NCBI RefSeq assembly: GCF_004300825.1
Contig: NZ_CP036250.1
Location: forward strand, 3,235,001-3,299,000
Direction: 5' to 3'
Source: Egicoccus halophilus
GTDB taxonomy: Bacteria > Actinomycetota > Nitriliruptoria > Nitriliruptorales > Nitriliruptoraceae
DNA: 64,000 nt
Positions within the stretch are counted from its first letter, which is position 1. Every line of letters starts with the position of its first letter. Position numbers and translations under genes: made by a program. This document shows positions 27,035 to 28,849 of the stretch, in pieces. The notes under the pieces are model-generated. The model worked only from the letters and a program-made list of their open reading frames with translations, ran no database searches and had not been told where the DNA came from.

Positions 27035-27638
27035 CCCGCCGCCGATGGAGCGACGGATCGAGCAGACCGTCCGTCGTGCCCGCCGGCACTGGTACCGCGT
27101 CGGGATGCCGCTCGGCGAGCGTCGACGCCACGCCGCCGAGCTGCGCGACCACCTCGTCACCGTCACCGAACGCGGTGGCAGCATCGAGGACGTCGTCGGG
27201 ACCGACCTCGAGGCGTTCGCCAACGACTGGTTCGTCGCGGGGCTGCGGCGGCCGGTGCTCGACGTCACACTGCAGCTCGCGGCCGCGGTGCTGCTCGTGC
27301 CCGCGCTGCTCGTGCTGCTGGCACCGCTGCTCGGCCACGACCGGTTCGGTTTCGCGCCCGCGGCGCTGGCCTACACCGGCGGGATCGCCGGCGCCGCGGT
27401 GAGCGCGAACGTCCTGCGCCGGTTCCGTCACCGGCTGGACGGGGCCGCGTTCACCTGGGCCGTGCTCGGCCTGTGCCTCGCCGGAGCGGTGGTCGGCACG
27501 ACCCTGCGGGCCTGGCTCGAGGCGCGCGACGCCGCCTTCGTGACCGTGCCCGTCTGGCTCGCCGTCGGCCTGCTCGTCGGGTCGATGGTGCTCCTGCTGG
27601 CCGCTCGTCGGCTACGTCGATCCGGCGCCGTCCGGTGA
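27009..27638 (+). CDS. HAAS-type membrane protein, PadR partner
   Basis: 209 residues: a charged N-terminal domain of about 75 residues (RRHAAELRDHLVTVTERG pattern of HAAS-type helices) followed by about four hydrophobic helices. Such proteins are commonly encoded with PadR regulators and are thought to pass signals to them. The start (ATG with GGAG upstream) lies inside the padR-like gene. The 3' end overlaps the convergent HAD gene by 27 bases. Confidence 0.7.
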   Translation: MSSQRPLADPPPMERRIEQTVRRARRHWYRVGMPLGERRRHAAELRDHLVTVTERGGSIEDVVGTDLEAFANDWFVAGLRRPVLDVTLQLAAAVLLVPALLVLLAPLLGHDRFGFAPAALAYTGGIAGAAVSANVLRRFRHRLDGAAFTWAVLGLCLAGAVVGTTLRAWLEARDAAFVTVPVWLAVGLLVGSMVLLLAARRLRRSGAVR

Positions 27639-28226
27639 GACGTCCCCGGGCCGCACGCCGTGCTCGGCGAGGAAGGCCCGGACCCCGTCCGCGTCGCGGT
27701 AGCGGTGGGCCGCGATGCCCAGCTCGCGCGCACCGGTGACGTTCTCCTCGCGGTCGTCGACGAACAACACCTCGTCGGCGCCGACGTCGAGCGCCCCGAG
27801 CAGTGCGGTGTAGAAGCCGGCGGCGGGCTTGCGGACACCGAGGTGACAGGAGGCGAGCACACGCTCGAATCGTCCCGCGAGCAGGGTCCCCGCCAGGCCG
27901 TCGATCCACCGCGGATAGTTGCTCGCGGTCGCCCGCACGACCACACCGTCGAGTCCGTCGAGCAGTTCGGCCATGCCCGGCAACCAGGTCGTGCCGGCGA
28001 GCCGGGTGCGGTGGAAGGCGTCCGCGTCGACGGCGATGCCACAGGTCGCGAAGCTGGACCAGTAGTCGGACTCGGCCAGCTCGTCGCGCTCCAGTGCCGG
28101 GTACGCACCCGGCGGCCGGCGGGCGAACAGCTCGTCGAGCGACAGCCCGGTCGCGGCGCGCAGCGCGTCGCGATAGGGGTCGCGGACCACGGTGTCCATC
28201 AGGTCGAAGGCCACGACCCGGATCAT
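27612..28226 (-). CDS. HAD family hydrolase
   Basis: 204-residue haloacid-dehalogenase-type phosphatase. Nucleophile motif VAFDLMDTVV at the N-terminus, motif II in VVVRATASNYPRW, the motif III Lys in GVRKPAAGFY and motif IV LFVDDREENV. A helical cap lies between motifs I and II. The substrate is unknown. Its ATG overlaps the stop of the thioredoxin-like lipoprotein gene (ATGA), so the two are co-translated. The 3' end overlaps the convergent membrane-protein gene. Confidence 0.87.
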   Translation of the reverse strand: MIRVVAFDLMDTVVRDPYRDALRAATGLSLDELFARRPPGAYPALERDELAESDYWSSFATCGIAVDADAFHRTRLAGTTWLPGMAELLDGLDGVVVRATASNYPRWIDGLAGTLLAGRFERVLASCHLGVRKPAAGFYTALLGALDVGADEVLFVDDREENVTGARELGIAAHRYRDADGVRAFLAEHGVRPGDVSPDGAGST

Positions 28227-28849
28227 CCGTCGCCGCCCGCGCCGCCCGCCGCCCCGTCCGTGCCGTCGCCATCGCCGCCCGCCGCGGCGGCCAGGACCGC
28301 CAGGCGGCGGTCGATCTGCTCGGCGGAGAGCTCGCCCAGCACCCGGTCGAGTTCCCCGTCCGGGGAGACGAACAGCCACGCCGGCTGCACGCGGACGCCG
28401 AGCGCGGACCACGCCGAACCGTCGTCGTCGACCAGTGTGGTCATGTCGGCCAGCCCGTGGCGGTCGCGGAAGTCGTGCATGGCCGCGTCGTCGTCCTGCG
28501 CGGCGATGCCGACGACCTCGACCCGGTCGCCGTAGCGTGCCAGCGCCTCCGCGACCGCGGGGGCCTCACGGTTGCACTGCGTTCACCACGGCGTCCACAG
28601 CCACAGCGCGGCGGCCCGGCCGCGCAGGTCGCCGAGATCGATCTCCCCGCCGTCGAGCGAGCGGCCGGAGACGGCGTACACCGGTGCCGCCGGCGCGGCC
28701 GTCGAGGACCCGGGGGCGTCCGCCGGGGCCTCCTCCGTCGCGCCCCCGTCGGCCGTCTGTGGCGGGTCCTGCCCGTCGTCGCACCCGCTCAGCACCCACG
28801 CGCAGACCAGCGCGACCGCGGTCACACGACGGCGGTGGGGGGTGGGCAC
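28223..28849 (-). CDS. Thioredoxin-like (TlpA-type) lipoprotein with in-frame UGA at active site; candidate selenoprotein
   Basis: 208 codons read through one TGA (28585-28583). GTG 28849 follows GAGG by 6 bases. The signal peptide ends LSGC (lipid Cys23), then a Pro/Ala linker and a thioredoxin fold from about residue 57: AALWLWTPW, UGA at residue 89, TQCNREAP with Cys92, VEVVGIAAQDDDAAMHDF, cis-Pro156 in VQPAWLF and a Gly/Asp-rich tail. The UGA falls exactly on the first Cys of W-C-x-x-C, and homology is continuous on both sides. A hairpin with G in its loop follows (28550-28576). I read it as Sec (U-x-x-C); a TGC-to-TGA nonsense mutation is the alternative. Likely role: extracytoplasmic thiol/peroxide redox. 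It is coupled to the HAD gene. Confidence 0.75.
28550..28576 (-). promoter_or_regulatory. Candidate bacterial SECIS hairpin after the in-frame UGA
   Basis: On the minus strand, downstream of the UGA: a 3-bp lower stem (TGC/GCG), an A-C mismatch, a 6-bp upper stem ACCGTG/CGCGGT and a 7-base loop AGGCCCC. The first G of the loop is 17 bases after the UGA, within the range usual for bacterial SECIS elements, which need a G in the first two loop positions. It was found by hand; no folding energy was calculated. Confidence 0.5.

Follow-up and report, generated by a model that had tools for sequence, protein, structure and literature searches.

The window analysed here, a 64,000-nucleotide (64-kb) stretch of DNA, contains on its minus strand a gene (28223–28849) that, judged by sequence comparison, almost certainly reads an internal UGA as selenocysteine (Sec) and encodes a real selenoprotein. 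Five lines of sequence evidence are in hand: a conserved UGA, the Sec machinery, covariation in a recoding hairpin, a fold relationship and counterparts with Cys. The best reading of the product is a lipid-anchored thiol-disulfide oxidoreductase of the DsbE/DsbF type that carries Sec, its lipidation being predicted from the sequence. The window corresponds to positions 3,235,001–3,299,000 of a host genome assembled as a single contig (3.98 Mb, estimated completeness 97.5%).

The reading frame starts at a GTG (28849), ends at a TGA (28223), and comprises 208 codons plus the stop. As the preliminary description had stated, it is broken only by the TGA at 28583–28585, which is codon 89 and recurs in relatives. 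The surrounding sequence, LWLWTPW-U-TQC-NREAP, places this codon where a W-x-P-W-[C]-x-x-C active site has its first Cys, so that the site reads W-T-P-W-U-T-Q-C-N-R-E-A-P, with Sec89 in the first position of UxxC. The second active-site residue, Cys92 (codon 28574–28576), is invariant in the homologue alignment A1. Protein-like sequence continues across the TGA, as had been proposed from inspection: the Pfam matches span the codon without a break (AhpC-TSA, residues 61–168, E 9e-14). In the 208-residue product, a hydrophobic N-terminus that ends in LSGC is followed by a low-complexity linker and then by a thioredoxin-like domain. The LSGC lipobox (28781–28792) forms a predicted signal peptidase II site at Cys23, and a Cys follows the hydrophobic stretch in most homologues. 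Pro156 (28382–28384) lies in an invariant Q155-P156-A157 segment and is the probable cis-Pro of the loop facing the active site, a geometry expected from the thioredoxin fold.

Fold, closest relatives and reaction direction

A profile built from eight homologues matched the solved structures 3ios (E 3.5e-46) and 1lu4 (E 4.6e-35) best, with ResA next at 7.7e-19. The AlphaFold2 model, computed with Cys in place of Sec, has pLDDT values above 90 across the domain, and a Foldseek search with it returned the same two structures at the top with an rmsd of 1.1 Å; ResA was also matched. These structures are Mycobacterium tuberculosis DsbF (3ios; TM 0.93 by target length, 38% identity) and DsbE/MPT53 (1lu4; TM 0.92 by target length, 35% identity). 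Both are secreted, like the window protein, and share with it the frame W-x-P-W-C-x-x-C-x-x-E-A-P, but have Cys where it has Sec. The earlier view of an extracytoplasmic lipoprotein with a thioredoxin fold thus agrees with the lipobox and the structural matches, and its label of TlpA-like can be made more precise, the closest relatives being the actinobacterial DsbE/DsbF proteins. Because the window protein has UxxC through its UGA rather than the CxxC that characterises the DsbE/DsbF group, we name it a Sec variant that would work like these enzymes and not a canonical member. It scores 60.8 bits against the ResA model NF002854, whose cut-off is 170. The NCBIfam family NF041054, a WAxxUGC ResA-like selenoprotein, likewise combines a ResA-like thioredoxin fold with a Sec near a WA motif, but its motif is UGC instead of UxxC, and the window protein, at 20.8 bits, stays below the model's cut-off of 300.

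In the mechanism that we propose, SelB bound to Sec-tRNA-Sec would recognise a hairpin located 26 nt downstream of the UGA, inserting Sec as residue 89. Sec89 would be the exposed attacking residue of U-x-x-C and Cys92 the resolving residue, so that exported proteins would undergo dithiol/disulfide exchange by way of a selenenylsulfide intermediate. In M. tuberculosis, VKOR has been proposed as the oxidase of a DsbA-type protein; a search of the host genome for a VKOR homologue gave no match. The M. tuberculosis DsbE and DsbF proteins are oxidants that carry out oxidative folding in vitro, and their proposed partner is of the DsbD type rather than VKOR (PMC3853704). Given this comparison, an oxidant role appears somewhat the likelier one for the window protein, although oxidative folding as the direction of the reaction is held with moderate confidence because of the missing VKOR match.

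A reductase that supplies apocytochrome c or other oxidised thiols with electrons, in the manner of ResA, TlpA or CcmG, would differ from the DsbE/DsbF-type enzyme solely in the direction of the reaction, and is a plausible if not the favoured reading. The NCBIfam and Foldseek matches to ResA, the missing VKOR and the redox chemistry of selenenylsulfides, whose low potential favours reduction, are consistent with it. Against it, DsbF and MPT53, the in vitro oxidants, are the closest relatives by a wide margin, and the host genome has a better ResA candidate in a Cys paralogue that adjoins a CcdA-like frame. This uninterrupted thioredoxin-like paralogue (L016; G000:C1:594875-595423) is followed by a frame with an ASPCVVP motif, and the two form a candidate ResA/CcdA pair for cytochrome c biogenesis.

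Conservation of the TGA and the selenium machinery

The gene is present in all three other congeneric genomes, each time with TGA as the Sec codon, at 58–62% protein identity. Within the family the gene is present in 8 of 35 genomes (E < 1e-20) from five genera, with identity down to 35%, and every copy has the TGA. Close relatives, which were to be inspected for additional lesions, keep the same TGA and show none. When profiles were searched without requiring a TGA, every match better than 1e-37 in the class (66 genomes) had it, and TGA forms as well as uninterrupted forms were recovered across the phylum (396 genomes). The uninterrupted relatives whose site was read have Cys there, for instance W-A-P-W-C-T-S-C or W-T-P-W-C-P-F-C, and the preliminary expectation of Cys in some homologues and an in-frame TGA in others is thereby borne out. 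A DNA pattern that required TGA, and was hence blind to Cys forms, found 42 named genome loci, mostly of Acidimicrobiia, Acidimicrobiales or Nitriliruptoria lineages. The corresponding locus search with the Cys-for-Sec protein returned no genome loci, as a back-translated active-site pattern cannot match TGA.

Chance does not explain the codon: among related loci, 55 distinct 54-nt segments have TGA at the same codon, and within the genus the flanking substitutions look coding, pN being lower than pS in every pairwise comparison both upstream and downstream of the TGA. Explaining the Sec/Cys label on an 81-row tree takes four changes, and well-supported branches force at least three of them. 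One genome holds Sec (WAPFUSVC) and Cys (WAPWCSVC) copies in tandem (L105; G208, C154:60424-61722), and another (G057) has two TGA-containing copies (L090 and L098).

The genes selA, selB, selC and selD, for which a search had been suggested, are all present in the host genome. SelA is encoded at 203845 (E 1.1e-121) with SelB directly behind it at 206700, and SelD at 1204182 (E 6.1e-98). The tRNA-Sec scores 56.5 bits, over the Rfam cut-off, and was assigned the anticodon TCA (UCA) by ARAGORN; a second match to RF01852 over the cut-off is a tRNA-Gly. The formate dehydrogenase alpha homologues of the host genome (L118–L123) have no in-frame TGA, so this enzyme is not evidently a client of the machinery, and a search by motif for the residue occupying the Sec position of FdhA found chance frames only. 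Of 37 genomes with the TGA gene, 35 have SelB, versus 5 of 11 with Cys forms only (Fisher p 8e-4, a value that ignores shared ancestry), several Cys-only carriers of the DsbE/DsbF-like group being without SelB altogether. The two TGA carriers without a SelB match (G013 and G299) are MAGs of 71% and 73% completeness. Taken by itself, the family shows a weak association (7 of 8 carriers versus 15 of 27 non-carriers, p 0.21), and SelB in those 15 implies other selenoproteins.

The recoding hairpin

Downstream of the TGA lies a bSECIS hairpin, designated type A, with the sequence GCC.CCGC-GGUC-GCGG.GGC (28545–28564, minus strand) and an apical loop at 28556–28553, 26 nt after the UGA. Type A occurs in the window gene, its genus and most Acidimicrobiia loci, with the consensus GCC.CYKC[GGUC]GMRG.GGC at columns 22–41 of alignment A2 and an invariant GGUC loop. 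Compensatory changes are seen in 24 sequences, and three pairs change on both sides (UA/CG, GC/UA and CG/UA). In this set 98.2% of cells are paired, a value inflated by selection on a four-base-pair apical stem, and 18 cells are double-changed; the invariance of GGUC and the alternating pair types lie outside the selection criterion. The covariation score was reached by none of 500 shuffles, and sliding the pairing partner abolishes the covariation. Some double changes alter the protein, as in Ala-Val-Ala to Ser-Val-Glu, where two codons change together and the stem is kept. Synonymous difference among genus members is 0 to 0.16 in the hairpin stretch versus 0.24–0.46 downstream. Within the window, the Sec89 TGA is the only one of 920 TGA triplets that has a type A hairpin at this spacing. 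Folded alone, the 48 nt of the window gene do not exceed shuffles in stability (z −0.34), and their minimum-energy fold is a different hairpin; the support for type A is comparative.

Other Nitriliruptoria and some further lineages have a second form, type B, whose stem occupies columns 31–49 of alignment A3; its loop has five bases and lies 34 nt after the UGA, and two of its pairs show compensatory changes. The published bSECIS model places a small apical loop, with G in its first two positions, 16–37 nt after the UGA on an upper stem of 4 bp or more, and both types conform to it (PMC13188914). The two loop positions are 8 nt apart relative to the same Sec codon (L011 and L026 are examples).

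The preliminary proposal that UGA stands for Sec in place of the first active-site Cys is thus backed by the conserved TGA, the machinery and the hairpin. Insertion of another amino acid, by Trp suppression or Cys insertion, or a programmed stop yielding a functional truncated lipoprotein, is very unlikely. Some truncated 88-residue product is indeed expected, as recoding is never complete, but it would stop short of the catalytic motif, and neither form of this explanation accords with a full Sec machinery that includes SelB and a UCA tRNA-Sec, with a bSECIS-type hairpin, or with orthologues that have Cys, the usual counterpart of Sec, at the site. A lesion in an ordinary Cys gene, whether nonsense mutation or sequencing error, is exceedingly improbable, as nothing but the in-frame stop itself speaks for it, and the recurrence of this TGA across dozens of independent genomes (35–62% protein identity), the coding-like substitutions downstream and the hairpin covariation speak against it. 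The conservation of the TGA led us to reject both a pseudogene and a sequencing error.

Relation to known selenoproteins and gene neighbourhood

The general kind of protein is already known, since selenoproteins that combine a UxxC motif with a TlpA-like or AhpC-TSA-like fold have been catalogued as 'thiol-disulfide isomerase-like protein' (cd02966) and 'Prx-like thiol:disulfide oxidoreductase' (pfam00578) (PMC13188914, PMC9312934). By description, these likewise have Sec first in UxxC, a thioredoxin fold of the TlpA/AhpC-TSA type and a bSECIS. The window protein stays below the cut-off of every model in NCBIfam 20.0, and no UxxC selenoprotein model is among the families that the eight homologues match; a literature search found no paper on selenoproteins of Nitriliruptoria or Acidimicrobiia. 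We give even weight to the proposal that the gene represents an undescribed, clade-wide Sec form of a secreted Dsb enzyme in these two classes, one that has long had Sec, and whose bSECIS occurs in two registers (26 and 34 nt), the signal having moved within the gene while the Sec codon stayed. The clade-wide conservation and the two registers are the notable parts. Little has been published on selenoproteins of these actinobacterial classes, to which the gene contributes a conserved one; genes of this kind appear truncated unless Sec is considered. Natural Sec and Cys orthologues, including the tandem pair, offer a way to test the benefit of selenium to a secreted disulfide enzyme, and the pair of hairpin registers provides a natural series for SelB recognition.

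The gene is followed on the same strand by that of a HAD-like hydrolase (27612–28226; PF00702, E 3.6e-8), which overlaps its stop by 4 nt (ATGA). The order of the two genes is kept in 7 of the 8 family members examined. The overlap (ATGA or GTGA) is shared by the genus and by G014 from another genus, and in two more genera of the family a HAD frame lies close behind the gene. At loci outside the family the HAD neighbour was not seen and other genes follow, so that, of the coupling to a HAD phosphatase described earlier, the overlap stands and the functional link is putative. Upstream of the selenoprotein gene, an M20 peptidase is encoded on the plus strand.
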